A model generated the notes under the pieces. That model did no database searches and was not told the DNA's origin. It saw only the letters and a list, made by a program, of their open reading frames with translations. Positions 26,432-64,000 of a stretch of 64,000 nt of DNA are shown in pieces. Each line of letters opens with the position of its first letter. Positions within the stretch are counted from its first letter, which is position 1. The DNA comes from Kutzneria viridogrisea (GTDB taxonomy: Bacteria; Actinomycetota; Actinomycetes; Mycobacteriales; Pseudonocardiaceae), in assembly GCA_014138725.1 (NCBI GenBank), contig JACJID010000001.1, positions 434,001-498,000 of the forward strand. The letters are read 5' to 3'. A program made the translations under genes and the position numbers.

Positions 26432-26460
26432 CGGTCAGGGCGCTGTCAGCTGGATGTCAG
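26432..26460 (+). promoter_or_regulatory. Triple SARP-type heptamer repeat
   Basis: CGGTCAG (26432-26438), CTGTCAG (26443-26449) and ATGTCAG (26454-26460) are spaced by exactly 4 bases, an 11-base period. SARP activators are known to bind direct heptamers with this spacing. The same core occurs before the amidase and main NRPS genes. It lies 48 bases before the aminotransferase start. Confidence 0.75.
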
Positions 26461-26507
26461 CCGCCAGGGTGAACCTGGATCCAGGTGACACCTGGACGGA
26501 GGACGCC

Positions 26508-27863
26508 GTGACCATCGAGTCCATGCCCGCACTGCACGGGGTGCGGACCCCGCTCCCGGGACCGCGCAGCGCGGAACTGCTGGCCAGGCAAGCTGATCGC
26601 GAGTCCGCCGCGCGGTCCTACCCGCGCCGCCTGCCGATCGCGCTGCGCCGGGGCAGCGGCAGCTACGTCGAGGACGCCGACGGCAACGTCTTCATCGACT
26701 TCCTCAACGGGGCCGGGGTGCTGCCGCTGGGGCACTCCCACCCCGAGCTGATCGGCGTGGTGCAGCACCAGGCGGCTGAACTCGCGCACGGGCTGGACTT
26801 CCCCACGGCGGTGAAGGACGAGTTCACCACGGCCTTGCTGAGCACCCTGCCCGAGGCCATGCGGTCCACGGCGAGGGTGCACTTCAGCGGGCCCACCGGC
26901 ACCAACGCCGTCGAGGCGGCGCTCAAGCTGTGCCGCACGGCAACCGGCCGCAGTGAGGTCGTGGCCTTCCACGGCGGTTTCCACGGTATGACGGCGGGTT
27001 CGCTGGCGGCCTCCTCGGAGGGCTCGCTGCGCGCCAGCTCACCGGGCGTGCACTTCCTGCCCTTCGCCTACTGCCACCGCTGCCCGCTCGGCCTGCGCCC
27101 GGAGTCCTGTGACACCAACTGCGCCGCCTACCTGGAACGGGTGCTCACCGGCAGCCACACGGGGTTGGCCAGGCCCGCCGCGGTGCTGCTCGAACTCGTG
27201 CAGGGCGAAGGCGGGGTCGTGGTCGCACCGCAGGAGTTCGTGCGCCGGGTGCGCGAGGTCACCGCGCGGCTGGACATCCCCCTGATCGTGGACGAGGTGC
27301 AGACCGGTTGCGGTCGGACCGGTCGCTGGTTCGCCTTCGAGCACTACGAGATCGAGCCGGATGTGCTGGTGCTGTCCAAGATGCTGTCCGGCTCCGGCAT
27401 GCCCACCGCCGTCGTGGTCTACCACGAGCGGCTCGACAGCTGGCGGCCCGGCGCGCACACCGGCACCTTCCGCGGCAACCAGCTCGCCTTCGCCTCCGGC
27501 ACGGCCTACCTCCGCATCGCCAGGCGGGACGGCCTGCTGGAGACCGTGTCCGCGCGGTCGACCCAGCTCAGACGCGGCCTCGACGAGCTGGCCGCACGAC
27601 TGCCGCAGCTGATCTCCGAGGTGCGCTCGCTCGGGCTGATGCTCGGTGTGGAGTTCAGCCACGCCGACGGCAGCCCCTGGCCGGAGGCGGCCAGCGCCAC
27701 GCAGCAGGAGGCACTGGCCCGCGGCCTGATCGTGGAGATCGGCGGCCGTGCGGACTGCGTGGTGCGCATGCTGCCCCCGCTCAACCTGGACGAGGCAACG
27801 GCACACCATGCACTGGAACTGTTCGGTGCCGCCGTGGAAGCGGTGTCGAAGCGGTTCGCGTAG
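26508..27863 (+). CDS. Class III aminotransferase, diaminobutyrate type
   Basis: A 451-residue PLP enzyme. The signatures are GPTGTNAVEAALK, HGGFHGMTAGSL, ELVQGEGGVVVAP, IVDEVQTGCGRTG and the PLP lysine in VLSKMLSG (about Lys291). The CHRCPLGL...C..NC insert is typical of the 2,4-diaminobutyrate:2-oxoglutarate aminotransferases found in siderophore and NRPS clusters. It would turn aspartate semialdehyde into 2,4-diaminobutyrate. The start is the GTG at 26508 with GGAGG 5 bases upstream; an ATG further upstream falls inside the heptamer site. SARP-type repeats upstream tie it to the main cluster. Ornithine or another omega-amino acid remains a possible substrate. Confidence 0.85.
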   Translation: MTIESMPALHGVRTPLPGPRSAELLARQADRESAARSYPRRLPIALRRGSGSYVEDADGNVFIDFLNGAGVLPLGHSHPELIGVVQHQAAELAHGLDFPTAVKDEFTTALLSTLPEAMRSTARVHFSGPTGTNAVEAALKLCRTATGRSEVVAFHGGFHGMTAGSLAASSEGSLRASSPGVHFLPFAYCHRCPLGLRPESCDTNCAAYLERVLTGSHTGLARPAAVLLELVQGEGGVVVAPQEFVRRVREVTARLDIPLIVDEVQTGCGRTGRWFAFEHYEIEPDVLVLSKMLSGSGMPTAVVVYHERLDSWRPGAHTGTFRGNQLAFASGTAYLRIARRDGLLETVSARSTQLRRGLDELAARLPQLISEVRSLGLMLGVEFSHADGSPWPEAASATQQEALARGLIVEIGGRADCVVRMLPPLNLDEATAHHALELFGAAVEAVSKRFA

Positions 27864-28918: not shown

Positions 28919-28924
28919 TAGAAT
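28919..28924 (+). promoter_or_regulatory. -10 box of the HNH gene
   Basis: TAGAAT lies 7 bases before the ATG at 28932, placing the transcript start at or beside the start codon. No ribosome site is present, so a leaderless transcript is likely. Confidence 0.45.
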
Positions 28925-28931
28925 TGTTGGT

Positions 28932-30290
28932 ATGACAGCATTCGTGGAGGCTCGGCCTGCCGCAGGGTTGTGGCGGTTGGGTGATGCGGAGCTGTTGGGT
29001 GAGTTGCGGGACGCGGAGGTGGTTCTGCGGCAAGCGTATGCGCGGGTGTTGGGGTTGGTTGCGGAGGCGGGTGCGCGGGGTGTGGCGGAGCGGGTGGGGT
29101 ATCCGAGCTTGAGTGAACTGCTGCGGAGTGTTCTGCTTGTCAGTAAGCGGGAGGCGAGGCAGAGGATTGTCCACTCGGCTGTTTCGGTGCCGGTTCCGCT
29201 TGAGCCTGAACAACTTTCGGTGATCAACCGGGTGCTGCGGGAGTTGCCGCCACACGTCGGTGCGGCCGACCGGGAGCAGGCTGTCGAGGTCCTGGCAGCA
29301 GCGGCCCAGTCGCTGGATGCGTCCTGCCTGGTGCCGCTGGGCCGGGAGATCGTCAACCGGCTGGATCCCGACGGGGCGCTACCGGGTGAGGACGAGCTCG
29401 CCCATCCCCGACGAGAATTCCGTTACGACACGCGGCGGGACGGATCAGTACGGTTCCAGGGGTGCCTGGACGCGGAGACTGGCGCACTGCTGGGGGCAGT
29501 GCTCAGCCCGTTGGCGAAACCACACGACGCCAGCGACACCCGCACCCTGCCCGAGCGGCAAGGGGACGCGTTCGCGGAACTACTGGAAACCAGCACCACC
29601 CCCACTGAAGGCGGAGAACGCCCGCACATCGCGGTGACGATTCCGCTGACAACACTCCAGAACGGGCTCGGCACCACCGAACTCGCCCCATCAGCGATCC
29701 GCCGACTGGCCTGTGATGCGAAGGTGATCCCAGTAGTACTGGGCAGCAACTCCGAACCCCTCGATATCGGGCGGATCAGCTACACCGTGCCGCCCCACCT
29801 CCGACGAGCACTAGTGGTCAGGGACAAGCATTGTGCGTTCCCGGGGTGCAGGCGCAGGCCAAGCTCCTGCCATGCACACCACATCGTCCATTGGGCGAAT
29901 GGAGGAGAGACGGCGCTGTCCAATCTGGTGCTGCTGTGCGGAATGCACCACAGACTCATCCACCACAGCGGCTGGACGGTGCGAATGGTCAACGGACAGC
30001 CGGAATTCACGGCGCCCGCGTTCCTCAGGCGAGGACGAAGACCGGGCAGTCAGGGCAAGGTGCCCAGTGGGCCGGGGGCGGCGAGCACGGCCTTGGCCTC
30101 GGCGAGCGGATCGCGGTACGGGGAGAGCAGGCGCTCGGCGAGGTGGGAGTGCAGGCGGGCGACGGAAACCACGGCGAGGGCGCCGAGCAGGGAGAGCAGG
30201 AGGAAGCAGGTGGCCATGAGCAGGGCGGTGGGCAGGTCGCCGACGAACACGCCGATGCCGCCACGGCCCTCGGGGCCGCTGGGGAAATAG
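28932..30290 (+). CDS. DUF222/HNH endonuclease (13E12-type) with aberrant C-terminus
   Basis: A 452-residue frame. About residues 1-300 are the DUF222 region, then an HNH nuclease motif: CAFPGCRRRP, CHAHHIVHWANGGETALSN and LLCGMHHRLIHH. Normal family members end soon after a segment like PEFTAPAFL; here about 80 further residues are read antisense through the convergent sensor gene (30050-30290), so the native stop is probably lost. Codon use is less GC-rich than its neighbours, suggesting acquisition. Such genes often occur in multiple copies in actinomycetes; whether they are mobile is unclear. The G-rich repeat tract lies immediately upstream. Confidence 0.82.
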   Translation: MTAFVEARPAAGLWRLGDAELLGELRDAEVVLRQAYARVLGLVAEAGARGVAERVGYPSLSELLRSVLLVSKREARQRIVHSAVSVPVPLEPEQLSVINRVLRELPPHVGAADREQAVEVLAAAAQSLDASCLVPLGREIVNRLDPDGALPGEDELAHPRREFRYDTRRDGSVRFQGCLDAETGALLGAVLSPLAKPHDASDTRTLPERQGDAFAELLETSTTPTEGGERPHIAVTIPLTTLQNGLGTTELAPSAIRRLACDAKVIPVVLGSNSEPLDIGRISYTVPPHLRRALVVRDKHCAFPGCRRRPSSCHAHHIVHWANGGETALSNLVLLCGMHHRLIHHSGWTVRMVNGQPEFTAPAFLRRGRRPGSQGKVPSGPGAASTALASASGSRYGESRRSARWECRRATETTARAPSRESRRKQVAMSRAVGRSPTNTPMPPRPSGPLGK

Positions 30291-30787
30291 CCGAGTTTCA
30301 CGCCGTGTTCGAGGTGGCCGTTGTACCAGGTGGGGGCGGACAGCCAGAACCACAGGGGCAGGGTCACCCCGGCGACACAGGCGAGCCACAGCACGAGGGC
30401 GGCGAGGTCGAGCAGGGCGAGCGGCAGGTACAGCAGGCCGAGGTAGGCGCAGTCGCGGAGCACGGCGGGATCGGTCCACCGGGCCTTGATCATGGCGAGC
30501 AGGCCGTGTTCGGGGGAGGGCAGGTAGGAGCTGTCGATGCGCTGGCCGAACAGCCGGGTGCGGTGGCGTTCGACCTCGGCACAGCCGCGCACGACGAGGG
30601 CGGCGCCGATGAGCAGGGGCACGCCGAGCGAAAGCAGGCTCAGGGCCCAGCAGACGAGCACGACGGTGGCGACAACGGCGAACAGCGCGGTGTCGAGCAC
30701 GAGGTAGCTCAGCAGGTAACCGCAGGCAATCCACGGGGCGGCCGAGAACGGCAGCGTCAGCGGACTGCGGCGGTGCCGCAGGATCAC
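30050..30787 (-). CDS. Membrane sensor-domain protein
   Basis: A 245-residue membrane protein resembling the putative sensor domain (PF13796 type) that precedes histidine kinases in actinomycetes, here alone. It has hydrophobic pairs at about residues 12-65 (LSYLVLDTALFAVVATVVLVCWAL) and 120-160, and a final helix near 200-220. The start is the GTG at 30787, overlapping the stop of the small coiled-coil gene (GTGA). It ends with an antisense overlap of about 240 bases with the HNH frame. It is coupled to a winged-helix regulator two genes upstream, so it may sense envelope stress for it; that is inference. Confidence 0.7.
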   Translation of the reverse strand: MILRHRRSPLTLPFSAAPWIACGYLLSYLVLDTALFAVVATVVLVCWALSLLSLGVPLLIGAALVVRGCAEVERHRTRLFGQRIDSSYLPSPEHGLLAMIKARWTDPAVLRDCAYLGLLYLPLALLDLAALVLWLACVAGVTLPLWFWLSAPTWYNGHLEHGVKLGYFPSGPEGRGGIGVFVGDLPTALLMATCFLLLSLLGALAVVSVARLHSHLAERLLSPYRDPLAEAKAVLAAPGPLGTLP

Positions 30788-31038
30788 CCGACGCTCCGCA
30801 GCAGCGATTCGACAGCGCTGAGCCGGGCGTTCACCTCGCTGAGTTCGGCGCGCAGGGCCTGCTGGTTGGCCACGGCCTCCTCGGCCAGCTTGCGGTAGCT
30901 GGCCATGGCGACGGCGTCGGCCCGGTGCCGCTGCAACCGGAAGTAGGCGACCAGGCTGGCCGAGATCCCGCCAATGACGATCAGCACGACGGCGATGGTG
31001 ATGATGGCCCCGGTCATCGGGAGGTCGATCTCCTTCAT
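30784..31038 (-). CDS. Small membrane-anchored coiled-coil protein
   Basis: An 84-residue protein with one transmembrane helix (about residues 9-31, GAIITIAVVLIVIGGISASLV) followed by a charged helical tail with heptad-like hydrophobic spacing (LAEEAVANQQALRAELSEVNARL). The start ATG at 31038 overlaps the stop of the winged-helix gene, and its stop overlaps the sensor gene start. Function unknown; it probably works with its two operon partners. Confidence 0.75.
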   Translation of the reverse strand: MKEIDLPMTGAIITIAVVLIVIGGISASLVAYFRLQRHRADAVAMASYRKLAEEAVANQQALRAELSEVNARLSAVESLLRSVG

Positions 31039-31361
31039 GTTCTCGTCTGCTTCCCACCAGCCACGCCATCCTCGTCCTCGCGCAGCGCCCCGAGCACGAC
31101 ATCGAGGTTGATCACGAGTTCGAATGGCATGAGTTCGAAGTACTTCATCGCTTTGCCGTCCGGCGAGAGTTCGAGCGTACCGGTGACCAGACCGGCTTTC
31201 TCCAGGCGCCCCAGGTGCATGTACAGCAGTGGCCGGGACAGTTCCAGCCGACGGGCCAGCTCGCTGACGTGCACACGCCCCTCGGCCAGCTCGCCGATGA
31301 TCCGCAGTCGCTGGGTGTGGCCCACCGCCGCGAGCAACTCCAGCAGTTCCTCGCTGGTCAG
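31035..31361 (-). CDS. ArsR/winged-helix regulator with probable CTG start
   Basis: A 108-residue winged-helix DNA-binding protein. The HTH is VSELARRLELSRPLLYMHLGRLEKAGLV, followed by a wing with GKAMKYFEL. The only conventional start is a TTG at 31337, which would cut off the first helix and has no ribosome site. A CTG at 31361 gives LTSEELLELLAAVGHTQRLRI, which fits the family N-terminus, and has GAGGGAG 5 bases upstream. CTG is therefore proposed. It heads the operon with the coiled-coil and sensor proteins. An AT-rich imperfect palindrome upstream (31399-31411) may be its operator. Confidence 0.75.
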   Translation of the reverse strand: MTSEELLELLAAVGHTQRLRIIGELAEGRVHVSELARRLELSRPLLYMHLGRLEKAGLVTGTLELSPDGKAMKYFELMPFELVINLDVVLGALREDEDGVAGGKQTRT

Positions 31362-32610: not shown

Positions 32611-33942
32611 ATGGAGAGCGCCGACCTGACCGACCGCTGCCTGGCGCGCATCGCCGAGCTCGACCCGGCGGTCAACGCGGTGCTCGCGGTGGACCCGACC
32701 GCGCGGGCCCAGGCCGAGGCCGCGGACCGGCGTCGTGCCGCCGGGCGGCGGTTGAGTCCGCTGGACGGCATCCCGGTGCTGGTCAAGGACAACATCGACA
32801 CCGAGGGGCTGGGCGGCAGCTGTGGTTCCCGCCTGCTGACGGCCCCGCCGGTGCGCGATGCCGGGGTGGTGCGGGCGCTGCGCGCGGCAGGCGCCGTGCT
32901 GCTGGGCAAGACGAACCTGTCGGAGTGGGCGAACTTCCGCGCCGCCGTGGTCACCGAGGGCTGGTCCGGGGCGGGCGGTCAGACCCGCAACCCGCACGTG
33001 CTGTCCCACAGTCCGTGGGGGTCCTCCTCCGGGTCGGCCGCCGCCGTGGCCGCGGGCATGGCCCCGCTGGCGCTGGGCACCGAGACCGACGGCTCGATCG
33101 TCGGTCCCGCGGGCGCCTGCGGGGTGGTCGGGTGCAAGCCGGAGCCAGGACTGTTGCCGGGCAACGGGATCTGCCCGGTCTCCCCGGCACAGGACAGCGT
33201 CGGGGTGTTCGCCGCGCACGTGCGGGACGCGCTGTCGGCAGTGGCCGTGCTCAGCGGCGGGCAGTGGCCGCCTGCCGAGCCGGGCCCGATCAGGTTCGGC
33301 TGCTGGCACCCGCCCGGTATGCCGGAGGAATCCGTCGAGCTCGTCGCGTCGGCGGCCGACCGGTTGCGGGCCGCGGGCAACGAGGTCGTGCCGGTGCGGC
33401 TGGAGCTGCCCAGGTCGGTGCGAGCCGACGGGTTGCGCGCGCTGTTCGCGGAGTTCCGGCCCGCGCTGGAGGACTATCTCGCGCGGCGGCCGGGCAACCC
33501 GGGCACCCTGCGCGAGCTGATCAGGCTCAACCGCACCGATCCCGTGGAGCTCGCGCTGTTCGAGCAGGACCTGTTCGAGCAGTGCGCGGACATCGACGAG
33601 CGCGAGCGACTGGCCGCGGCGCGGGCCGGGGTCCTGGCACGGGCCGCCGCGCGGCAGGTGATCGACACCGTGCTGCGCGAGCACGGCGTGGCCGCGGTGC
33701 TCGCGCCGTCCAACCCGCCCGCCTGGCCGATCGACCACGAGGTGGGCGATCCGTTCCCCAGTTCGAGCTCGACCCCCGCGGCGCTGGCCGGGTACCCGGT
33801 CGTCTCGGTGCCGGTCGGCTGCCACGGCGACCTGCCGGTGGGCATGTCGGTGTTCGGCCCGGCCACGCTGGCCGGGCTGCTGCCCGCCGCACTCGCCGCG
33901 GCGGCGGTCGGCGTGCTGCCCGCGCCGCGTTTCCTGCCCTGA
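32611..33942 (+). CDS. Amidase-signature hydrolase
   Basis: A 443-residue amidase with the Ser-Ser-Lys triad intact: Lys59 in VLVKDN, cis-Ser138 in WGSSSGS and nucleophile Ser162 in TDGSIVGPA. The 24-residue spacing between the two serines matches fatty acid amide hydrolase. The family hydrolyses amide bonds; it could trim a peptide, remove a protective group or release an aminoacyl part. It heads an operon with the SyrP-like oxygenase, tryptophan dioxygenase, formamidase and FkbM methyltransferase, with gaps of 3-20 bases. SARP-type repeats lie directly upstream. The substrate is unknown. Confidence 0.88.
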   Translation: MESADLTDRCLARIAELDPAVNAVLAVDPTARAQAEAADRRRAAGRRLSPLDGIPVLVKDNIDTEGLGGSCGSRLLTAPPVRDAGVVRALRAAGAVLLGKTNLSEWANFRAAVVTEGWSGAGGQTRNPHVLSHSPWGSSSGSAAAVAAGMAPLALGTETDGSIVGPAGACGVVGCKPEPGLLPGNGICPVSPAQDSVGVFAAHVRDALSAVAVLSGGQWPPAEPGPIRFGCWHPPGMPEESVELVASAADRLRAAGNEVVPVRLELPRSVRADGLRALFAEFRPALEDYLARRPGNPGTLRELIRLNRTDPVELALFEQDLFEQCADIDERERLAAARAGVLARAAARQVIDTVLREHGVAAVLAPSNPPAWPIDHEVGDPFPSSSSTPAALAGYPVVSVPVGCHGDLPVGMSVFGPATLAGLLPAALAAAAVGVLPAPRFLP

Positions 33943-33961: not shown

Positions 33962-34897
33962 ATGCAGTTGGAGAAGGCCACCGAGGGCGGCACCACCGCG
34001 ATCATCGTCCACATCGGACCCGGGGATGACCCCGCCGAGGCGCGCGCCCAGGCGGAGGACCTGCTGCCGGTGTACGGAGCCGTGCTGCTGCGCGGCCTGG
34101 GCATCAGCGACCCGGACTCGTTCCACGAGGCGGTGCGCGGTTTCGGCAGCCCGACCATCGACAGCTACCGCGGCGGCAACACCCCGCGCAGCACCGTGTC
34201 CGAGGGGGTGTTCACCTCCACGGAGTACCCGGCGCGCTACGAGATCACCCTGCACAACGAGCTGTCCTACGCCCACCAGTGGCCGTCCCGGCTGTTCTTC
34301 TGCTGCCTGGTGGCCGCCGAGACCGGTGGCGCCACCCCGGTCTGCGACGGCCGTGCGCTGCTGGCCGACCTCGACCCGGCGGTGCGCGAGCGTTTCGAGT
34401 CCCGGCAGGTGGCCTACCACCAGCACCTGCACGGCGGGCACGGGCTGGGCAAGTCCTGGCAGCAGACCTTCGAGACGCGGTCGCGTGCGCGGGCCGAGGA
34501 GTACCTCACCGCGGCGGGCGCCCGGTTCGCCTGGACGACCGAGGGCGGGCTGCGGGTGACGCAGGTCCGCGCGGCCGTGCGGCAGCACCCCGCCACCGGC
34601 GAGCCGGTGTGGTTCAACCAGGCCACCCAGTGGCATCCGTCCAACCTGCCTTACGACGAGGCCGACCTGCTGCTGTCCGTTGTGGACAGTGAGCTCGACC
34701 TGCCGCATTCGGCGAGCTACGGGGACGGCGGGGCGATCGGCGCGGACGACCTGGCGCAGGTGCGCCGGGCGGAGCGGCGCAACAAGCTGTCGGTGCCCTG
34801 GCGGCCCGGCGACCTGATGATGATCGACAACATGCTGGTGCTGCACGGGCGTGAGCCGTTCACCGGCAGCCGCAAGGTGATCGTGTCGATGACCTGA
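33962..34897 (+). CDS. SyrP/TauD-like Fe(II)/2-oxoglutarate oxygenase
   Basis: A 311-residue non-heme iron enzyme. Ligands are His98 and Glu100 in LHNELSY (an HxE variant of HxD) and His295 in LVLHGREPF, with Arg304 for 2-oxoglutarate. HNExSY is the pattern of SyrP-type enzymes, some of which hydroxylate aspartate bound to a carrier protein. Here it could hydroxylate a residue on the NRPS carrier, such as the third residue. It lies 19 bases after the amidase and 20 bases before the dioxygenase gene. A separate AsnO-like enzyme in the cluster uses a different fold subgroup, so the two probably act on different substrates. Confidence 0.85.
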   Translation: MQLEKATEGGTTAIIVHIGPGDDPAEARAQAEDLLPVYGAVLLRGLGISDPDSFHEAVRGFGSPTIDSYRGGNTPRSTVSEGVFTSTEYPARYEITLHNELSYAHQWPSRLFFCCLVAAETGGATPVCDGRALLADLDPAVRERFESRQVAYHQHLHGGHGLGKSWQQTFETRSRARAEEYLTAAGARFAWTTEGGLRVTQVRAAVRQHPATGEPVWFNQATQWHPSNLPYDEADLLLSVVDSELDLPHSASYGDGGAIGADDLAQVRRAERRNKLSVPWRPGDLMMIDNMLVLHGREPFTGSRKVIVSMT

Positions 34898-34917: not shown

Positions 34918-35826
34918 ATGCGCGAATCCGAAGGAGCCAACGTGGGTGGCCGTGCCTACCGGCCCCTGTCCGAGCGGGAGCGGAGGGAGCGGGCCGAGCG
35001 CACCGGCGGCGAGCCCGAGTTCGACTTCGGCGCCAGCGCCGAGAGCACCCCCTACATCGACTACCACCACGTGGACGTCCTGCTGAGCTTGCAGCACCCG
35101 CGCACCCAGGAGCCCGCGGAGCTGTCGTTCTACATCTGCGGGCAGGTCCAGGAGTTGCTGTTCAAGCTGCTGTTCACCGAGGTGAACCTGGCCAGGGACC
35201 TGCTGTTCGCGCGGCGGCTGGACCCGGCGCTGGCCGTTCTGCGCCGCACCGAGCGGACCCTGCGCGTGCTGGTCACCACCTGGGAGCCGCTGAGCACGAT
35301 CACCGTGTCGGAGTTCCACAACTTCCGCGACGAGCTGGGCGAGGCCTCCGGGTTCCAGTCCTACATGTACCGGCAGCTGGAGTTCGCGCTGGGCAACAAG
35401 TCCCCGCGCATGGCCGAGGCGCACCGCGGGGTGGACTGGGTCTACAAGCAGGTGGACGCGGCCCTGCGGGCGCCGAGCCTGTACGACGCGGCGCTGAGCT
35501 ACCTGCACTCGCAGGGGGTGGAGCTGCCCGCCGGGTGCTTCACCCGCGACCCCGCCGAGCCCGCACCGCACGACCCCGCCGTGCAGGCCGCCTGGGCGCG
35601 GGTCTACCGCGAGCCCGAGCGGCACCACGGTCCGTACCTGCTCGCGGAGGCCCTGTCGGACCTGAACTACCAGTACGCCCGGTGGCGCAGCACGCACCTG
35701 CTGACCGTCGAGCGGGTGATCGGCGGCAGACCCGGCAGCGGGGGCACCGACGGGGTCGGCTGGCTGCGGCGCATCGCCGAGCACCGGTTCTTCCCCGAGC
35801 TGTCCGCCGCCCGCTGCACGGGCTGA
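34918..35826 (+). CDS. Tryptophan 2,3-dioxygenase with altered active site
   Basis: A 302-residue heme enzyme. Family marks are IDYHHVDVLLSLQHP, EFHNFRDELGEASGFQS and the proximal His260 in WRSTHLLTVERVIG, followed by GSGGTDG in place of the usual GTGGSSG. In canonical enzymes the distal motif reads FIxxHQxxELWFK; here it is FYICGQVQELLFK, so the His that contacts the indole nitrogen is Gly75. The enzyme would open Trp or halo-Trp to formylkynurenine. The ATG at 34918 has GAGGAG 9 bases upstream; a GTG at 34942 with AAGGAG 5 bases upstream is an equally good start. It is followed after 3 bases by the formamidase. Confidence 0.88.
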   Translation: MRESEGANVGGRAYRPLSERERRERAERTGGEPEFDFGASAESTPYIDYHHVDVLLSLQHPRTQEPAELSFYICGQVQELLFKLLFTEVNLARDLLFARRLDPALAVLRRTERTLRVLVTTWEPLSTITVSEFHNFRDELGEASGFQSYMYRQLEFALGNKSPRMAEAHRGVDWVYKQVDAALRAPSLYDAALSYLHSQGVELPAGCFTRDPAEPAPHDPAVQAAWARVYREPERHHGPYLLAEALSDLNYQYARWRSTHLLTVERVIGGRPGSGGTDGVGWLRRIAEHRFFPELSAARCTG

Positions 35827-36669: not shown

Positions 36670-37497
36670 ATGACCATCGACCCCGCGCGGATCGAGGGGA
36701 TCAACCGGCACGAGACGGAGTTCCTCTACGAGGAGATCTTCCGCAGGCGGACCTACCTGCCCGAGGGGCTGAGCCTGCCGCCGGGCGCGGTGGTGTTCGA
36801 CGTGGGCGCGAACATCGGCGTGTACTCGCTGTTCGTGCACACAGTCAGCCCCGGTGCGCGGGTCTACGCCTTCGAGCCGCTGCCCCCGGTCTTCGCCAAG
36901 CTGGCGGCCAACCTGGCCCGGCACGGGGTGGACGGCACGGCGCTGCCGCACGGTCTGTCCGATGTGGATGGTGAGTGCGAGTTCACCTACTACCCGGGCT
37001 ACACCACCATGTCCGCCCGCGCCGACTACGCGGACACGGTGGCGGAGAAGGAGTTCGTCAAGCAGCAGGTGCTCGTCGACGGGGCGCCGGAGGTCCGCGA
37101 GTACGTGGACGAACTGCTCGACGTGCGCTTCCGCGAGACCGCACACCGGTGCCGCCTGCGCAGGCTCTCCTCGGTGCTCGACGAACTCGACGTGCCCCGC
37201 ATCGACATGCTCAAGATCGACGTGCAGCGCGCCGAACTGGACGTTCTGCGCGGCATCGAGGACCGGCACTGGCCGCTGGTCGGCCAGGTGGTGCTGGAGG
37301 TGCACGACCAGCCCGGCACCGCCACGGAGGGCAGGGTGGCCCTGGTCGGCGGACTGCTCGCCGACCAGGGCCTGACCGTGACCGTGCAGCAGGAGGACCG
37401 GCTCACCGGCACCGACCGCTACACGCTGTTCGCCGTGCGCACCACGGATCGGCCCGGGGGCCAGTCCAGCTCCGGGGCCCCGGTGAGGATGGCGTGA
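36670..37497 (+). CDS. FkbM-family methyltransferase
   Basis: A 275-residue SAM-dependent methyltransferase. Motif I is VVFDVGANIGVYSLF, followed by RVYAFEPLPPVFAKL and later LKIDVQRAELDVL, all typical of FkbM proteins. These usually O-methylate sugars, hydroxy acids or natural-product hydroxyls. GGAG lies 8 bases before the ATG. It ends the amidase operon and overlaps the convergent SARP gene by 79 bases. A likely target is a hydroxyl introduced by one of the two oxygenases or the P450, which is inference. Confidence 0.88.
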   Translation: MTIDPARIEGINRHETEFLYEEIFRRRTYLPEGLSLPPGAVVFDVGANIGVYSLFVHTVSPGARVYAFEPLPPVFAKLAANLARHGVDGTALPHGLSDVDGECEFTYYPGYTTMSARADYADTVAEKEFVKQQVLVDGAPEVREYVDELLDVRFRETAHRCRLRRLSSVLDELDVPRIDMLKIDVQRAELDVLRGIEDRHWPLVGQVVLEVHDQPGTATEGRVALVGGLLADQGLTVTVQQEDRLTGTDRYTLFAVRTTDRPGGQSSSGAPVRMA

Positions 37498-38270
37498 TGC
37501 ACCCGGCGCAGCAGCTCGCCGGGGTGCACGCCGAACTCGTCGGCCAGCGTGCGGCGGCCCTCGTCGAACAGGGCCAGCGCGTCGGCCTGCCGGTCACTGC
37601 GGTAGAGCGCGGTCATCAGCTGTGCCCGCAACCGGTCCCGCAGCGGGTGCTCGGCGACCAGCCCGGCCAGCTCCGGCAGCAACTCGGCGTGCCCGCCCAG
37701 GGCCAGGTCCGCCTCGATCCGCCGTTCCAGCACCGAGATCCTGGCCTCCTCCAGGCCCGGTGCCGCCGAGCTGACCAGGCGCTCGGAGACCCCGGCCAGC
37801 GCGGGACCGTGCCACCGGTCCAGCGCTGAGCGCAGTTTCCTGCTCGCCTGTTCGTACCGGCCCAGTGCGAGCGCGGACCGGCCCAGTTCGGCGTCGGACT
37901 CGAACCGCGCCAGGTCCAGGTTGCCCTGGCCGATGTGCAGCACGTAGCCGGGGGAACGGCGCTCGATGACCGCCCCGCGCCCCAGTGCCTTGCGCAACCG
38001 GGACACGTAGGTGCAGATCTGCGCGTGCGAGGTGGCTGGCGGGTCCTGTCCCCACAGCAGGTCGCTGAGCTGGCTGTCGGACACCAACCGCTGCCCGGAC
38101 AGCAGCAGCGCCGCCAGGACCGTGCGTGGTTTCGACCCGTCCACCGGCAACTCGCGCAGCCCGTCGCTGACCCCGACCGGGCCGAGCACCCGGTAGTCCA
38201 GCCCGTCGGCCGGGCGCAGTGTGCCGCGCCTGCGCGCGTCCCCGGCACGCCCCGCGATTCTCCGGATCAT
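37419..38270 (-). CDS. SARP-family transcriptional activator (distal)
   Basis: A 283-residue regulator with an OmpR-like winged HTH (about residues 25-115, YRVLGPVGV, then ATSHAQICTYVSRLRKALG) and a bacterial transcriptional activation domain (about 120-270). SARP proteins bind tandem heptamers and recruit RNA polymerase to antibiotic genes. Its start ATG at 38270 overlaps the stop of the second SARP gene, so the two are co-translated. It has no NTPase or sensor extension. Its 3' end overlaps the FkbM gene antisense. Confidence 0.9.
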   Translation of the reverse strand: MIRRIAGRAGDARRRGTLRPADGLDYRVLGPVGVSDGLRELPVDGSKPRTVLAALLLSGQRLVSDSQLSDLLWGQDPPATSHAQICTYVSRLRKALGRGAVIERRSPGYVLHIGQGNLDLARFESDAELGRSALALGRYEQASRKLRSALDRWHGPALAGVSERLVSSAAPGLEEARISVLERRIEADLALGGHAELLPELAGLVAEHPLRDRLRAQLMTALYRSDRQADALALFDEGRRTLADEFGVHPGELLRRVHHAILTGAPELDWPPGRSVVRTANSV

Positions 38271-39025
38271 CCGAGCACCTTGTCCTGGACCAGAATCGCC
38301 TGGTACAGGTTCCGCATTCCGCGACCCGGTTCCAGCCCCATTTCCGTCGCCAGCCGCCTGCGGGCGTGGTGGAATACGTCGAGTGCCTCCTCCTGTCGTC
38401 CGTTGCGGTAGAGCGCGAGCATCAATTGCTCGCTGAACCGCTCCCGTTCCGGGTATTCCGCGGCCAGTTCGTTGAGTTCCGACACCACGCCCCTGCCGTC
38501 ACCCACGGCCAGTTTCGCGGTGATCAGGTCCTCCCGTGCGCCCAACCGCCGTTCCTCCAGCCGGGTGGCCGCCAGCCGGCACCGCATGCCGTCGCCGACA
38601 TCGGGCAGCGCCGGCCCGCGCCACAGCCGCAGAGCCCTGTCCAGCAGCGCCATGGCCCGCCTCGGGTCCTGCGCCAGGCAGGCCGAGCCGCGCGCTGCCA
38701 GGTCGGTGAACTCGTGCGCGTCCACCCACTCGGTGGGCAGGTCCAGCAGGTAGCCCCCGCTGACCGTGCGCACCACCTCGTCGCCCCGGCAGCCGGTGAC
38801 CGACTCCAGCAGCTTGCGCAGCCGGGTGACCGTGGCCTGCAACGCGTTGCGCGCGTTGCCCATCTGCTTGTCCGCCCACAACTCGTCGACCAGCCGCTCG
38901 GCCGACAGCGGAACCCCCGGTGCGAGAGCCAACATCGCCAGCACGGTGCGCCCCTTCACCGAGGCCACGTCGAACCTCTTCGCACCGTGCGCGATGACGA
39001 CCGAACCGAGAACCAGTATCCGCAT
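38267..39025 (-). CDS. SARP-family transcriptional activator (proximal)
   Basis: A 252-residue SARP with the same layout: winged HTH (about residues 5-95, KGRTVLAMLALAPGVPLS, then NALQATVTRLRKLLE) and an activation domain. The start is the ATG at 39025, with GGGGGG about 9 bases upstream; in-frame codons before it are not supported. It faces away from the NRPS gene across a 379-base intergenic region holding the heptamer pair, so it can act on both. Two tandem SARP genes may bind as a hetero-pair or in sequence; only their adjacency is seen. Confidence 0.9.
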   Translation of the reverse strand: MRILVLGSVVIAHGAKRFDVASVKGRTVLAMLALAPGVPLSAERLVDELWADKQMGNARNALQATVTRLRKLLESVTGCRGDEVVRTVSGGYLLDLPTEWVDAHEFTDLAARGSACLAQDPRRAMALLDRALRLWRGPALPDVGDGMRCRLAATRLEERRLGAREDLITAKLAVGDGRGVVSELNELAAEYPERERFSEQLMLALYRNGRQEEALDVFHHARRRLATEMGLEPGRGMRNLYQAILVQDKVLG

Positions 39026-39404
39026 CCGCGACAACCCCCCTCTGAGTCGTCGGGGGACGGCCTCACACGCGCGAGGACCAGACCAACTCGCCTGTTCCGA
39101 GATAAGCCACCCCCCCCAGGTACAACCGAACACCCGGTGTAGTGCCCCCATGTCCACCGGAACCGGAAGAATTCAGACCGAATGAAAACTTCCTGCACGC
39201 ATCCTAGACAGGGCGATTCGGTGGGGGAAATACCACGAGAGATGTACGCACATACCGCCGTGGTATGCCGCCAGAAAGGTGACCCGCACTCGAAGTGTAT
39301 CGGAATGCCTGATTCCGCGCACCGCCCGTTCGCGGTGTCAGGACCGTGTCAGCGGGCCCGGACAGGATTGTCCGCAGCGGCTACGACGCTTCCGGGAGAC
39401 AGTC
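39026..39404. promoter_or_regulatory. Divergent SARP/NRPS control region
   Basis: A 379-base region without a gene. The SARP-type pair GTGTCAG (39335-39341) and GTGTCAG (39346-39352), 4-base gap, lies 53 bases before the NRPS ATG, with CAGGAT at 39363-39368 as a possible -10. An inverted repeat CATACC-GCCGT-GGTATG lies at 39251-39267, and a run of eight C near 39111. GGGAG sits 6 bases before the NRPS start. Confidence 0.7.
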
Positions 39405-51841: not shown

Positions 51842-53061
51842 CCGGCACCGTGCCCACCGAGCTGGTGGGCTGCGACCTGACCGATCCCCAGACCTACCTC
51901 GGCACCGACGTCACGGCCCTGTGGCGGGCGTTCCGGCGGCACAGCCCGGTGCACCGGCACCCGCCCAGCGGCGGCCTGCCCGGCTTCTGGGCGGTGACCC
52001 GCTACGCCGACGTGCTCGCGGTCTACCGCGACGACGAGCGGTTCACCTCCGAGCGCGGCAACGTGCTGAGCACCCTGTTGCAGGGCGAGGACTCCGCGGC
52101 GGGCAAGATGCTCGCGGTCACCGACGGGCATCGGCACCGGGAGATCCGCAAGCTGATGCTCAGGTCGTTCTCCCCGCGTGTGCTGGCCCGCCACCGCGAG
52201 TCCGTGCGCGCCAGGACCTCCGCGCTGCTGGCGGCGGCGGTGCGCGAGGAGCGGTTCGACTTCGCCACGCGGGTCGCCGACCACATCCCGATCAACACCA
52301 TGGGCGACCTGATGGACGTGCCCGAGGCCGACCGGGCGAAGTTGGTCGAGTGGAACACCGAGACCCTGGGCAGCAGGCACGCCGACGGCACCCAGCTGGA
52401 CGAGGTGCTGGCCCGCAACGAGATCCTGCTCTACTTCTCCGAGCTGGCCGAGCACCGTCGCCGCCACCCCGGCGAGGACGTGATCAGCGCGCTGGCCAAC
52501 GGATCGGTGGACGGCGAGCCGCTCAGCGACGAGGAGGTCGTGCTCAACTGCTACAGCCTGATCCTGGGCGGGGACGAGTCCAGCAGGCTGTCCGCCACCG
52601 GCGCGGTGGTCGCGCTGGCCGAGCACCCCGAGCAGTGGCGCGCGCTCAAGGACGGGTCGGTGGGGCTGGCCGAGGCCAGTGAGGAGGTGCTGCGCTGGAC
52701 CACCCCGGCCATGCACTTCGGGCGGCGCGCCCGCACCGAGGTCCAGGTCGGCGACCAGCTGATCGCCGCGGGGGACATCGTCACCCTGTGGAACAGCTCG
52801 GCGAACTTCGACGAGGACGTCTTTGCCGAGCCCGAGCGGTTCGACCTGGCCCGTACCCCGAACAAGCACCTGACCTTCGGCTACGGCCCGCACTTCTGCC
52901 TGGGCGCCTACCTGGGCCGCGCCCACGTGGAGGCCGTGCTGGAGGCCCTGCGCGAGCAGGTCGCCGAGCTCGCGCTGGCCGGGCCCGGCCACCAGATCCG
53001 CTCCAACTTCGTCTACGGCTACCTGAACCTGCCCGTCAGCTTCCGAGGAGAAAAGCGATGA
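51838..53061 (+). CDS. Cytochrome P450
   Basis: A 407-residue P450. Heme Cys near residue 353 in [15 protein letters not shown], ExxR as EEVLRW, and an I-helix segment [10 protein letters not shown] near 243-249 where most family members have an AGxET(T)-like motif; the usual Thr is Ser here. The layout resembles P450s that oxidise carrier-bound amino acids in NRPS pathways. ATG at 51838 overlaps the permease stop (ATGA) with GGAGGAG upstream, and its stop overlaps the MbtH start. Possible roles are beta-hydroxylation or ring oxidation of a bound residue; the site is unknown. Confidence 0.9.
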
Positions 53062-53264
53062 GCAATCCCTTCGACGACCAGGACGGCACCTTCCTGGTGC
53101 TGGTCAACGAGGAGTTCCAGCACAGCCTGTGGCCCGCCTTCGCCGAGGTGCCCGCGGGCTGGACCGTGGCCCTTGGCGAGAGCAGCCGCGCGGAGGCCCT
53201 GTCCTACGTGGAGCGGCACTGGACCGACCTGCGCCCGCGCAGCCTGGTCGAACGGGCCGGCTGA
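53058..53264 (+). CDS. MbtH-like adenylation-domain partner
   Basis: A 68-residue protein with the full MbtH signature: [10 protein letters not shown], then PAGW, and WTDLRPRSL near the end, containing the three conserved Trp. MbtH proteins bind A domains and are often needed for their solubility or activity. The start ATG overlaps the P450 stop (ATGA). It is the only MbtH gene in the window and most likely serves the large NRPS; it could also serve the Val-Pro synthetase. Confidence 0.95.
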
Positions 53265-54211: not shown

Positions 54212-55087
54212 GTGGTCCGGATCCACTTCACCGCCGAGGACCTCGGCCGGATCACGCTGCGGGTCACCCTCGGCCCGCTGGCGCAGTCGTTGCTGGCACT
54301 GGGCGCGCTGGGCAGGTCGGGGGTGGCACCGCACGGCCCGTGGCGCAGCAGGGTCACCGCCCAGCTGCGCGGGCAACCCGCGTTGGCGGGCCTGCTCACC
54401 GCCGGTCCGGTGGACGGTTTGCCGGTGCTGCTTGAGGATCCCGCACGGAGCGCGGCGCTGCTTGGTCTGTGGCGGGTGGCCGTCGCGCCCTACTGGGACC
54501 GCATGGCCGGTCAGCTCACCGCCGAGTGCGCGGTGCGCGGGCGGGCCGCGATGTCCGAGGGGGTCCCGGCGCTGCTGTCCACCCTGCACACCAGGATCGA
54601 GTGGTCCGCGCCCGTGCTCGAACTGCCCGGCCAGGACCTGACCGTGCGGCTGCGCGGGCGCGGGCTCGTGCTGTGCCCCTCGCTGTTCCCGCTGCCCAGC
54701 GGCGGGCTGTTCCTGGACGGGGACCGCCCCGCCCTGCTGTTCGCCGCCCCGCCCGACCGGGCCGCCGCGGAGTGGATCTTCGGTGCCGCAGCGGAGGGGC
54801 CGGGGGCACTGGGCTCGCTGGTCGGCCACACCAGGGCCGCCGTGCTGCGCGAGCTGACCGCCACCCGCAGCACCGGGGAACTCGCCGAGCGGCTGGGCAT
54901 CTCCCCGGCGGGGGCCAGCCAGCACACCACCGTGCTGCGGCACAGCGGGCTGATCGCCACCCGCCGGGTGCGCAACCGCGTGCTGCACTCGCTCACCCCG
55001 CTCGGACAGGCCCTGCTGCGCGGGCGCAGTTGGACGACCGCGCCCGCGCACCGGGTTCACACCGCGTCCGCCGACCAGCCCCGGTAG
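54212..55087 (+). CDS. ArsR-type helix-turn-helix regulator
   Basis: A 291-residue protein with a C-terminal winged HTH (about residues 210-270, STGELAERLGISPAGASQHTTVLRHSGLI, then RVRNRVLHSLT). The large N-terminal domain of about 200 residues has no recognised ligand fold and begins VRIHFTAEDLGRITLRV, a pattern seen in actinobacterial regulators of this type. GTG start 3 bases after the ATPase stop, so it belongs to the NRPS operon. Likely a local regulator of export or resistance. Its 3' end overlaps the convergent flavin reductase by 31 bases. Confidence 0.85.
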   Translation: MVRIHFTAEDLGRITLRVTLGPLAQSLLALGALGRSGVAPHGPWRSRVTAQLRGQPALAGLLTAGPVDGLPVLLEDPARSAALLGLWRVAVAPYWDRMAGQLTAECAVRGRAAMSEGVPALLSTLHTRIEWSAPVLELPGQDLTVRLRGRGLVLCPSLFPLPSGGLFLDGDRPALLFAAPPDRAAAEWIFGAAAEGPGALGSLVGHTRAAVLRELTATRSTGELAERLGISPAGASQHTTVLRHSGLIATRRVRNRVLHSLTPLGQALLRGRSWTTAPAHRVHTASADQPR

Positions 55088-55575
55088 GACCGCCTGCCGT
55101 ACAGCAGCGGGCCGGGGCCGTGCCGGGTCGCGGTCGCGCGGACCTCGCCGAAGACGATCAGGTGGCTGCCCACGTCCTCGGTCCGCACGACCCGGCAGTC
55201 GGCGATCGCGTGGGCCTGCCGCACCAGGTGCGGTCCGGCGGCGCCCTCGGGCAGTTCCCAGTCCACCAGCTCGAACCGGTCCGCGGCCCCGGAGGCGAAC
55301 AGCTCCGCGGTGCGCCTGGCCCGCTCGTGCAGCAGGTTCACGGTGAACGCCCCCTGCCGCAGCACCTCGGCCAGCGTGGGGCTCTGCGCGCGCAGGCACA
55401 CCAGCAGGGTGGGCGGGTCCAGGCTGAGGCTGCACAGGGAGGTGCAGGTCATGCCCCTCGGCTCACCCAGCTCCCCGAGCGTGGTCACCACCGCGACCCC
55501 GGTCGGGAACTCGGCCATCAGCGAGCGGAACCCGTTGGGGTCCACCGTCTTGCTCAGCGAGGTCGACTCGGTCAT
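55057..55575 (-). CDS. Flavin reductase (halogenase partner)
   Basis: A 172-residue flavin reductase-like protein: FPTGVAVVTT near the start, GMTCTSLCSLSLDPPTLLVCL, then FTVNLLHERAR and LIVFGEV. These are the marks of the small NAD(P)H:flavin oxidoreductases that feed reduced FAD to two-component halogenases and monooxygenases. ATG at 55575 overlaps the antiporter stop by one base (TGATG). It ends an operon headed by the tryptophan halogenase, which fits it being the supplier of FADH2. NADH or NADPH preference cannot be told. Confidence 0.92.
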   Translation of the reverse strand: MTESTSLSKTVDPNGFRSLMAEFPTGVAVVTTLGELGEPRGMTCTSLCSLSLDPPTLLVCLRAQSPTLAEVLRQGAFTVNLLHERARRTAELFASGAADRFELVDWELPEGAAGPHLVRQAHAIADCRVVRTEDVGSHLIVFGEVRATATRHGPGPLLYGRRSYRGWSADAV

Positions 55576-56853: not shown

Positions 56854-58656
<1,803 letters not shown>

Positions 58657-62136: not shown

Positions 62137-62158
62137 TGCACAACCGATCGGCTCTCCA

Positions 62159-62198
62159 GCGCGATGTCCCGGGATCCCCCTTCTCCGGGACATCGCGC
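62159..62198 (+). terminator. Long stem-loop after the MMPL gene
   Basis: GCGCGATGTCCCGG (62159-62172) pairs perfectly with CCGGGACATCGCGC (62185-62198), 14-base arms and a 12-base loop. It begins 23 bases after the MMPL stop. There is no T tract, so it is either a GC-type actinomycete terminator or an RNA element. An AT-rich stretch with two TATAGG hexamers (62214-62243) follows and may be the ACP promoter. Confidence 0.6.
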
Positions 62199-62307
62199 GC
62201 CGCCGTCGCCCCCTATGGGAAAAATATAGGAGCCCGTATAGGTCCCGGTGCGAGTCTCCTCCCGCGGGCCACCGGACCGGCCCGCCAATCACGCGGGAGA
62301 GACGAAC

Positions 62308-62583
62308 ATGACCACTGCGAATGCCAACGCGTCCACCGGTGTCGGCGACGAGCTGCGGGCCAAGGTGAAGGAGATCGTCTGCGAGATCCTGGAGATCGAC
62401 CCCGAGGAGATGACCGGGGAGAGCCTGTTCAAGGAGGACCACGGCGCTGACTCGATGGGTGCCATCGAGATCCTGTCCTCCCTGGAGCGCACCCTCGGCG
62501 TGGACATCGACCAGAGCGAGCTCGCCCGCATGGTCAACCTCGACGGGGTCATCGCCGTCGTCGCCGAGGCCATGGCCGCCTGA
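62308..62583 (+). CDS. Acyl carrier protein
   Basis: A 91-residue carrier protein. The 4'-phosphopantetheine site is Ser49 in GADSMGAIE, with the usual flanking helices (ELRAKVKEIVCEILEID before, LERTLGVDIDQSELARM after). The start is the ATG at 62308 with GGGAGAG 7 bases upstream. The ketosynthase gene follows after 28 bases. A free ACP beside a ketosynthase and close to an NRPS with an N-terminal condensation domain suggests that it carries an acyl or polyketide starter chain. Confidence 0.92.
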   Translation: MTTANANASTGVGDELRAKVKEIVCEILEIDPEEMTGESLFKEDHGADSMGAIEILSSLERTLGVDIDQSELARMVNLDGVIAVVAEAMAA

Positions 62584-62611
62584 GCCGACACCGAGCAGGG
62601 GGGAGGACCGC

Positions 62612-63832
62612 ATGGACAGCGCGCGCGAGCCGAGGCGGGTGGTCGTCACCGGACTCGGTGTGGTGACCAGCATCGGCACCGGGGTCGGGGAGTTCCTGAC
62701 CGGGCTGAGATCGGGCCGCAGCGGGGTCAAGCCGATCACCTCGTTCGAGACGGCGGGCTACGCGCACGCCAACGGGTGCGAGATCACCGACTTCGATCCG
62801 GCGCGGCGGCTGCACGAGGCCGGTGCGGAGGAACTGGGCCGTGCGGGCCAGTTCTCGGCGGCGGCGGCGCGCATGGCCGTGGCCGACGGGGCGATGCCCG
62901 TGCGGGCGCTGCGGGAGGAGCGCGTGCTGGTCTCCGTGGGGACCACCGACGGCGAGTCCCGCGACCTGGACCGGCTGGCGATCCTGGACTACCAGGACGG
63001 GCCCGCCCACCTGGCGCGGCGCTCGCCAGCGGGCAGGCTGTCCAGTGCCATCGTGCGCGAGCTCGGACTGTCCGATGTGGAGGCCGTGACCATCCCGACC
63101 GCCTGCGCCGCGGGCAACTACGCCATCGGGCACGGCATGGACGCCATCCGCGCCGGTGACGTGGACGTGGCCCTGTGCGGCGGGGTGGACGCCCTGTGCC
63201 GCAAGACCTACGCCGGGTTCTACCGGCTCGGCGCGATGGCGCCGGAGGTCTGCCAGCCCTTCGACCGGGACCGCAAGGGCATCCTGGTCGGCGAGGGCGC
63301 GGGCATCCTGCTGATGGAGAGCCTGGAGCACGCCCTGGCACGAGGGGCGCGCATCTACGCCGAACTGCTCGGCTACGGGCTGACCTGCGACGCGCTCAGC
63401 CCGGTCGCACCGGACCAGGACAGCCTGGCCCGCTGCATGCGGCTGGCCCACGAGAACGCCGGGGTGAAGCCGACCGACATCGACTTCATCTCCGCGCACG
63501 GCACCGGTACCAAGGCCAACGACATGACCGAGGTGGCGGCCATCCGGCAGGCGTTCACCGACGCGCCGCCGCCCACGGTGTCCATCAAGGGCATGCTGGG
63601 CCACGCCATGGGTGCCGCGAGCGCGCTGGGTGCCGCCGCCTGCGCGCTGGCGATCACGGAGGGCTTCATCCCGCCGACGATCAACCACCGGGAGACCGAC
63701 CCCGAGTGCCAGGTGGACTGCGTGCCCAACCAGGCGCGGCCCGCCGAGGTCAGGGTGGTGCAGAACAACGCGCTGGCCTTCGGCGGCAACAACGCGGTGC
63801 TGATCCTGGGACGGTACGGGACCGCGGCATGA
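62612..63832 (+). CDS. Beta-ketoacyl-ACP synthase (FabF-type)
   Basis: A 406-residue ketosynthase with the full Cys-His-His set: Cys165 in PTACAAGN, His296 in SAHGTGTKAND and His331 in LGHAMGAA. The spacing fits condensing enzymes of the FabF or type II PKS alpha kind; no chain-length-factor partner lies in the window. It elongates acyl-ACP with malonyl units. GGGGGGAGG lies 6 bases before the ATG. Its stop overlaps the next gene's ATG. The rest of an acyl-chain set is probably outside the window. Confidence 0.92.
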   Translation: MDSAREPRRVVVTGLGVVTSIGTGVGEFLTGLRSGRSGVKPITSFETAGYAHANGCEITDFDPARRLHEAGAEELGRAGQFSAAAARMAVADGAMPVRALREERVLVSVGTTDGESRDLDRLAILDYQDGPAHLARRSPAGRLSSAIVRELGLSDVEAVTIPTACAAGNYAIGHGMDAIRAGDVDVALCGGVDALCRKTYAGFYRLGAMAPEVCQPFDRDRKGILVGEGAGILLMESLEHALARGARIYAELLGYGLTCDALSPVAPDQDSLARCMRLAHENAGVKPTDIDFISAHGTGTKANDMTEVAAIRQAFTDAPPPTVSIKGMLGHAMGAASALGAAACALAITEGFIPPTINHRETDPECQVDCVPNQARPAEVRVVQNNALAFGGNNAVLILGRYGTAA

Positions 63833-64000
63833 CGGCCTTCCCAGTGCTCCGCAGGAAGTCCACATCTGACAGTCCTGTTCGGACATTGCTGCTGCACGGC
63901 CTCGGCTGCACGAACGCGATGTGGGACGAGTTCGTGGTGCACGCGGACGGGCGGCTGGAGCTGTGGGACGTCACCCTGCCCTGGCACGGGGTGGACGACC
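63829..64000 (+). CDS. Alpha/beta hydrolase, N-terminal part
   Basis: The gene begins at the ATG overlapping the ketosynthase stop (ATGA) and runs off the window after 57 codons. The visible part has LLLHGLGCTNAMWDEF, the strand and oxyanion-hole loop of an alpha/beta hydrolase, then LELWDVTLPWHG. The catalytic residues lie beyond the edge. In this position it could be a thioesterase or lactonase for acyl chain release. Function open. Confidence 0.7.
   Translation, partial: MTAFPVLRRKSTSDSPVRTLLLHGLGCTNAMWDEFVVHADGRLELWDVTLPWHGVDD

Follow-up and report, generated by a model that had tools for sequence, protein, structure and literature searches.

What does a nonribosomal peptide synthetase (NRPS) make when a tryptophan dioxygenase stands on one side of its gene and a tryptophan halogenase on the other? 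Such an arrangement is found in a stretch of 64,000 nucleotides from Kutzneria viridogrisea, positions 434001-498000 of a contig in its 10.25 Mb genome (G000:C1), which is called the window here and which was read, together with its right flank (L005), through gene calls and Pfam scans. We hold, at a probability of about 0.62, that it carries a biosynthetic gene cluster for a chlorinated lipotripeptide with chlorokynurenine at position 2. An initial annotation had already proposed an acyl-tripeptide with halokynurenine, and the proposal agrees with the gene content, with the order of the NRPS and with the co-variation among 12 clusters, because of which halokynurenine at position 2 of an acyl-tripeptide is the best supported reading of the sequence.

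The assembly line and its supply genes

The genes that carry this reading lie at the following window positions.

34918-35826, plus strand: tryptophan 2,3-dioxygenase (TDO); PF03301 153.4 bits, aligned with 2nox over 258 residues
35830-36660, plus strand: alpha/beta hydrolase of the kynurenine formamidase type, with a Cys nucleophile (GHCAGA); the PDB kynurenine formamidase 4e11 is third among its matches
39405-51053, plus strand: NRPS, C-A1-T-E-C-A2-T-C-A3-T-TE (C, condensation; A, adenylation; T, thiolation; E, epimerization; TE, thioesterase), start inferred; Pfam and domain motifs
45300-46331, plus strand: core of A2 (AMP-binding), the proposed halokynurenine pocket; Pfam stretch 2008-2351, DFWGVAGVG in the three clusters with TDO
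50286-50966, plus strand: TE domain; PF00975 stretch 3670-3896, GWSFGG
55057-55575, minus strand: flavin reductase; PF01613 127 bits
56854-58446, minus strand: flavin-dependent tryptophan halogenase of the RebH kind, start inferred; PF04820 534.9 bits
58703-59827, minus strand: AsnO-like iron/2-oxoglutarate (Fe/2OG) oxygenase; PDB 2og5 (asparagine oxygenase) 369.1 bits, next 144.2
62308-62583, plus strand: acyl carrier protein (ACP); PF00550 47.5 bits, 75% identical to the ACP of the sister cluster G265
62612-63832, plus strand: ketosynthase (KS) alpha of a type II reducing polyketide synthase (PKS); PF00109/PF02801
63829-64000, plus strand: start of an alpha/beta hydrolase, followed by the PKS genes of the right flank (L005 2829-9121)

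By Pfam, the NRPS holds four Condensation-family, three AMP-binding and three PP-binding stretches and one thioesterase, and one of the four Condensation stretches is the epimerase by its motif, so that the three-module enzyme with an N-terminal C domain and a TE, described before, stands as C-A-T-E-C-A-T-C-A-T-TE. Read at the GrsA positions, and with the tenth residue taken as Lys, the codes are DIWQVTADD (A1), DFWGVAGVG (A2) and DLTKMGEVG (A3), the last of the form DLTKxGEVG, which we take to be an Asn code. The best reading of the product order would be acyl-D-Dap-(3-chloro)kynurenine-(beta-hydroxy)Asn, where Dap is 2,3-diaminopropionate. What had been called a D-basic and an Asn-type residue can thus be narrowed: the former is most likely D-Dap, by the module 1 code, the epimerase and the comparison of 12 clusters, and the latter most likely beta-hydroxy-Asn, by the Asn code and the AsnO-like gene.

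Where would the chlorine be placed? The halogenase, which has the catalytic Lys and Glu and a flavin reductase partner in the cluster, scores 840.9 bits with RebH, 822.5 with Thal (6h43) and 349.1 with 6nsd, presumably Tar14. Thal differs at five alignment positions from 6ib5, which we take to be Thal with the RebH pocket, 7-selective and numbered 52, 82, 360, 469 and 470 at these positions. At four of them the G000 enzyme equals 6ib5 and RebH (Ile, Ile, Thr, Asn) and at the fifth it has Ala, the pocket reading IITAN. Since four of five positions are RebH-like, an enzyme of the Trp-7 type is predicted, and hence 3-chlorokynurenine after ring opening; the halokynurenine first proposed would then take its halogen on C7 of Trp, not on C6.

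How might these parts work together? All substrates, the regiochemistry and the product are predicted from sequence. The flavin reductase would feed reduced flavin adenine dinucleotide (FADH2) to the RebH-like halogenase, which would chlorinate free tryptophan, at C7 by prediction; TDO would open the indole ring, and the formamidase-type hydrolase would take off the formyl group to give chlorokynurenine (3-chloro if C7 is right). The type II reducing PKS (ACP, KS-alpha/KS-beta, ketoreductase (KR), two dehydratases (DH), a DSBA-domain protein and an acyl-CoA dehydrogenase) may build an acyl chain, probably short and unsaturated, to be joined to Dap by the first C domain. Module 1 would load and epimerize Dap, for which an SbnB/SbnA pair at another place on this contig would act in trans; module 2 would load chlorokynurenine, module 3 would load Asn, probably 3-hydroxylated by the AsnO-like enzyme, and the TE would release the peptide. 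A P450sky-like cytochrome P450, a TauD-type oxygenase (TauD oxygenase 1), an FkbM methyltransferase and an amidase would be tailoring enzymes without an assigned place in the scheme. As for the acyl group, KS with its chain-length factor (CLF), ACP, KR and DH adjoin an NRPS that opens with a C domain, and the PKS beginning at the right edge of the window is probably the source of the chain. The DSBA-domain protein has a homologue of 57-73% identity in all 15 of the other loci examined.

Does residue 2 follow its supply genes?

Sister clusters were found with TDO, and then with the PKS thioesterase-like protein, as bait. Among the best 16 of the 55 genomes with a match to the latter, 12 have this NRPS, while G064, G297, G027 and G092 were dropped, with no such NRPS in the fetched stretch. 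Every absence given here holds for the fetched stretches, which span 52.8 to 101 kb; that of G091 ends inside its NRPS and that of G171 just past its flavin reductase. Gene content, gene order, domain order, conservation and co-variation are direct observations on these stretches.

The NRPSs of G265 and G346 are 59% and 57% identical to that of G000 from end to end, and both clusters share with it TDO, the hydrolase, the halogenase (79-80%), the P450 (75%), the AsnO-like enzyme and the PKS set. The NRPS, the AsnO-like enzyme and the PKS are kept in G001 and G178, where TDO was not found; the halogenase of G178 is only distant (35%), and none was seen in G001. TDO and hydrolase occur in three of the 12 clusters, and the module 2 code DFWGVAGVG occurs in the same three and in none of the nine others, which have DGWGVAGVS (one), DAWCVAGVA (one), DAWGVAGVG (two) or DAWAVAGLA (five). 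How common is such a TDO? Within a comparison set of 390 genomes from 46 genera of the family, presumably Pseudonocardiaceae, a match at E 1e-92 or better was found in three, again G000, G265 and G346; a wider class sample of 394 genomes yielded no further close one (a single genome, G000 itself), and no TDO of at least 60% identity was found in 106 matching plasmid-collection records. The G000 genome has a second TDO at C4:240278-241072, 45% identical to that of the cluster.

The five DAWAVAGLA clusters have a halogenase 72-74% identical to that of G000, and no TDO was seen in them. The pocket of this halogenase is VITSN; the nine RebH-like halogenases with a TDO beside them (G000, G265, G346 and six Streptomyces loci, L032-L037) have IITAN instead. 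The codes of these five clusters, G194, G291, G112, G091 and G171 (L082, L084, L092, L093, L120, L122-L125, L134-L142, L146-L149), are of Dap type, DAWAVAGLA and of Dap type again, with a fourth code, DILQxGxIW, presumably Gly-type, in G194, G291 and G091. Judged from their genes, they perhaps make chlorotryptophan lipopeptides. G122 and G153 (L080, L090, L091, L121, L130-L133) show no halogenase in the stretch and Dap-type codes in modules 1 and 3. In a halogenase tree with a midpoint root, which is not secure, the enzymes of the TDO-less family members branch beside the G000, G265 and G346 halogenases, within the group of the TDO-hydrolase-halogenase cassettes, and this position would fit a loss of TDO and hydrolase from the TDO-less clusters.

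The other two residues can be followed in the same way. The AsnO-like gene is present in five of the five clusters whose module 3 has the Asn code DLTKxGEVG, and it was seen in none of the seven fetched stretches in which module 3 carries the Dap-type code DIWEVTADD. For module 1, all 12 clusters share a Dap-type code, D[IV]W[EQ]xTADD; SbnA lies in the fetched stretch of 11 clusters and SbnB in that of eight, and SbnB of G001 is 3.6 kb outside its stretch while those of G346 and G178 are elsewhere in the genome. The G265 proteins both pass their family models (SbnA 384.8 against a TIGR03945 cut-off of 349.95; SbnB 406.5 against a TIGR03944 cut-off of 326.9).

What weighs against this reading?

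The TDO of the cluster scores 281.5 bits with TIGR03036, below the equivalog cut-off of 390.7. The three clusters with TDO form one clade in the NRPS tree (100/100), and the match of their module 2 codes therefore counts as one evolutionary event, not three.

Could the chlorine sit on C6 of Trp, to give 4-chlorokynurenine as in taromycin, or otherwise not at C7? Thal, a Trp-6 enzyme, comes near RebH in score (822.5 against 840.9 bits), and Ala at position 469 is neither the Ser nor the Gly form. Nevertheless, Ile52, Ile82, Thr360 and Asn470 are of the RebH-like form, at 52, 82, 469 and 470 the Trp-6 enzymes 6h43 and 6ul2 carry Val, Val, Gly and Ser, and the match to 6nsd, Tar14 on our assumption, is the weakest of those listed above. 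A caution on regiochemistry also comes from gausemycin, whose halogenase is annotated as Trp-7 although its product has 4-chlorokynurenine, according to the excerpted text of the source (PMC12471526). We regard chlorination away from C7 as unlikely.

Could residue 1 be diaminobutyrate (Dab) made by a nearby transaminase, rather than Dap? SbnA and SbnB lie outside the G000 cluster, which is the exception to the 11 of 12, and a gene of the diaminobutyrate-transaminase type is found at 26454-27863, passing TIGR00709 (406.7 against a cut-off of 401.6). The A1 code of G000 has Gln at position 278 where the 11 other clusters have Glu, and DVWQMIGDDK is given for beta-hydroxy-Dab, with Dab and Dap codes said to be alike, in the excerpt of PMC12283262. 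However, the same Gln form, DIWQSTADD, is read in a domain of a different NRPS cluster of G000 that itself bears SbnB/SbnA (C1:171992-173951), nothing close to the transaminase is encoded in the stretches of the 15 other loci (28-29% matches in two), and the transaminase has two paralogues in its genome (60% and 58%). Of six further genomes from the genus, only one shows a match to it at E 1e-80. Dab from this transaminase, once favoured, was downgraded when DIWQSTADD was found in the SbnA/B cluster, and it now seems a doubtful source of residue 1; since the SbnB/SbnA pair accompanies a DIWQSTADD domain there, Dap made in trans would be the simplest supply. The region around that pair (G000:C1:155001-195000; L099, L100) also has MbtH, two TauD oxygenases and a SARP regulator.

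Might module 2 take (chloro)tryptophan, while TDO and the hydrolase belong to a different branch, for instance a cap derived from kynurenine or the regulation of Trp? The five sister clusters with a close halogenase and no TDO presumably load chloro-Trp, the A2 of the TDO clusters has the xxW.VAG core in common with the TDO-less sisters, and DFWGVAGVG is one residue, position 236, away from the DAWGVAGVG of G122 and G153, which have no TDO. Yet this position is Phe in the three TDO clusters and Ala or Gly in all nine TDO-less ones, and the Pfam names of the annotated genes between 30 and 71 kb reveal no kynurenine-using enzyme. An Amidohydro_2 protein, whose fold is shared by one late enzyme of kynurenine catabolism, lies at 72.8 kb, outside the conserved cluster. 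We consider tryptophan at this position quite unlikely, and retain chlorokynurenine.

Is the formyl group really removed? The nucleophile of the hydrolase is Cys instead of Ser in G000, G265 and G346 (three of three), and Ser in 14 of 14 other aligned homologues, all from loci located through their TDO (L025 and L053, being a single gene, count once); deformylation is therefore not assured. The G000 cluster has a hydrolase of the family type, and not the Ser nucleophile of kynurenine formamidase. The claim is that the pathway works like those of the chlorokynurenine kind; it does not extend to each enzyme being a standard member. As a long shot, the locus could be a RebH-derived cassette for lipotripeptides of 3-chlorokynurenine, an isomer that we know from no peptide, in which the formamidase has turned into a Cys enzyme with another handling of the formyl group, transfer or retention in place of plain hydrolysis. 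That the Cys enzyme fails to deformylate, the residue staying N-formyl-(chloro)kynurenine or the formyl group being moved, is very unlikely, for all its Cys, as the oxyanion motif HGGYW and the His are retained and Cys triads can hydrolyse.

Cluster limits and the remaining genes

The cluster had been called incomplete at the right edge of the window, and the DNA to the right (L005) bears this out: an alpha/beta hydrolase, a thioesterase-like protein, KS-beta, two FabA-type dehydratases, a ketoreductase, the DSBA-domain protein and an acyl-CoA dehydrogenase follow, in identical order in G265 and G346, to an end at about 70.1 kb in window coordinates. None of the genes beyond that point (methyltransferase, PhzF-like, DJ-1-like, amidohydrolase) is matched at E 1e-8 in the stretches of G265 and G346, where the SARP pair stands in their place. 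The left limit lies probably near 30 kb, at a sensor-LysR pair (30-32.6 kb), because this pair is kept side by side in G265 and the aminotransferase at 26.4 kb lacks a close homologue in the other 15 loci; the aminotransferase is probably outside the cluster, and the limit of 26432 set earlier probably too wide. The remaining genes are as follows.

30050-31102, minus strand: membrane sensor-like protein, probable left limit; PF13796 80.8 bits
31502-32569, plus strand: LysR regulator, start uncertain; PF00126/PF03466, homologues in G265, G346, G001 and G178
32611-33942, plus strand: amidase-signature enzyme; PF01425 259.7 bits, in three of 12 clusters (G000, G265, G178)
33962-34897, plus strand: TauD-type Fe/2OG oxygenase 1; PF02668 160.3 bits, best PDB match 1y0z 129.1 bits, in four of 12 clusters
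36670-37497, plus strand: FkbM-type methyltransferase; PF05050, TIGR01444 above cut-off, in three of 12 clusters
37419-39157, minus strand: two SARP-type regulators (37419-38270 and 38267-39157); PF03704 and PF00486
51050-51841, plus strand: ABC-2 membrane subunit; PF01061
51838-53061, plus strand: cytochrome P450 of the P450sky kind; PF00067, PDB 4l0e 496 bits, next 287.2
53058-53264, plus strand: MbtH-like protein; PF03621 95.3 bits
53270-54208, plus strand: ABC ATPase, start inferred; PF00005
54212-55087, plus strand: helix-turn-helix (HTH) regulator; PF12840
55575-56849, minus strand: cation/proton antiporter; PF00999
59935-62136, plus strand: MMPL exporter; PF03176

From left to right, the sensor-like protein, LysR, amidase, TauD oxygenase 1, TDO, formamidase-type hydrolase and FkbM methyltransferase are followed by the two SARP regulators, the NRPS (about 3.9k residues), the ABC membrane subunit, P450, MbtH, ABC ATPase and HTH regulator, then on the minus strand by flavin reductase, antiporter, halogenase and AsnO-like oxygenase, and finally by the MMPL exporter, ACP and KS-alpha. 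All the genes that the initial annotation named are there, but they do not stand together as it had put them: the TDO/hydrolase and halogenase/reductase pairs are about 18 kb apart and flank the NRPS. The sensor-like protein has a 54% identical homologue beside a LysR gene in G265 and homologues of 43-46% in G346, G178, G122 and G153, and none was seen in the fetched stretches of the remaining six of the 12 clusters. We take 4l0e to be P450sky of skyllamycin, a beta-hydroxylase of carrier-bound amino acids. As the P450 is present in 10 of the 12 clusters (not seen in G001; the G091 stretch ends before it could show), its presence follows neither residue 2 nor residue 3. Elsewhere in the window are a 1290-residue protein with a C-terminal CHAT domain (4108-7980) and a separate 1624-residue NRPS protein, A-C-A-T (16170-21044; codes DAFWLGGTF and DVQFVAHV-), in which Pfam finds no thioesterase.

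The cassette elsewhere and known systems

Has such a set of genes been used before? A scan of named genomes gave 19 loci, six of which have TDO, hydrolase and halogenase in a row, all in Streptomyces: S. narbonensis, S. caatingaensis, S. echinatus, S. cupreus, S. hydrogenans and sp. rh34 (L032-L037). Their proteins are like those of G000 (TDO 62-68%, hydrolase 58-61% and halogenase 72-77% identical; pocket IITAN), whereas the neighbours differ and the hydrolase has Ser; with six such loci, the cassette probably represents an older unit. In Streptosporangium carneum (L038) and Streptomyces sp. DHE7-1 (L043), TDO lies near a distant halogenase, 37% identical to that of G000, with the pocket FITYS.

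The pairing of the KS/CLF, KR, DH and ACP of a type II reducing PKS with an NRPS is common to G000 and to the hybrids for ishigamide, skyllamycin, ADEP1 and cinnamoyl peptides, as excerpts of two papers describe them (PMC9321520, PMC11446937). Three candidate relatives were set aside. For a cinnamoyl acyl group, there is one KS/CLF pair among the genes annotated from 30 to 75 kb, against two in epoxinnamide in the excerpt of PMC9321520; enamidonin/kutzneridine contains Gly, Phe and two Dap by the backbone in PMC11204786 (kutzneridine being covered through a review passage), against Dap-type, aromatic-type and Asn codes here; and the pachycephalamides, as excerpted (PMC11446937), are a different peptide. 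No description of this tripeptide is among the matches listed in openly licensed full-text papers, a negative that counts as weak evidence.

Taromycin is a long daptomycin-like lipopeptide, and the G000 cluster differs from its system in having three modules, a halogenase that is RebH-like and not Tar14-like (840.9 versus 349.1 bits) and a product predicted to be 3-chloro and not 4-chloro. What the two have in common is the logic: in taromycin, by the excerpt of PMC12615548, Tar14 chlorinates free Trp and chlorokynurenine is formed after, and the same order, halogenase on free Trp and then chlorokynurenine for loading by the NRPS, is predicted for G000. Gausemycin (ClKyn12; Streptomyces sp. 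B188M101), with L-4-chlorokynurenine, likewise has, in the excerpted account (PMC12471526), an NRPS cluster that includes TDO and a Trp halogenase annotated as Trp-7; it is unlike G000 in being a lipoglycopeptide of 14 residues, and it was compared by description only.

If our reading is true, chlorokynurenine peptides such as taromycin and gausemycin would be joined by one with a far shorter scaffold and a predicted isomer of the chlorokynurenine residue. The reading would also offer 12 clusters in which the building blocks at residue 2 (aromatic, chloro-aromatic or chlorokynurenine) and at residue 3 (Asn or Dap) have apparently been exchanged along with the enzymes that supply them, so that recoding of A domains through gain or loss of a supply cassette becomes directly testable, and an unusual Cys-type formamidase as an enzyme to assay. 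The predicted product would place the known chlorokynurenine logic on a short scaffold that is seemingly new, within a family given to swaps of building blocks; with its unusual Cys formamidase as well, the Kutzneria cluster would be a variant on the kind of system known from taromycin and gausemycin.

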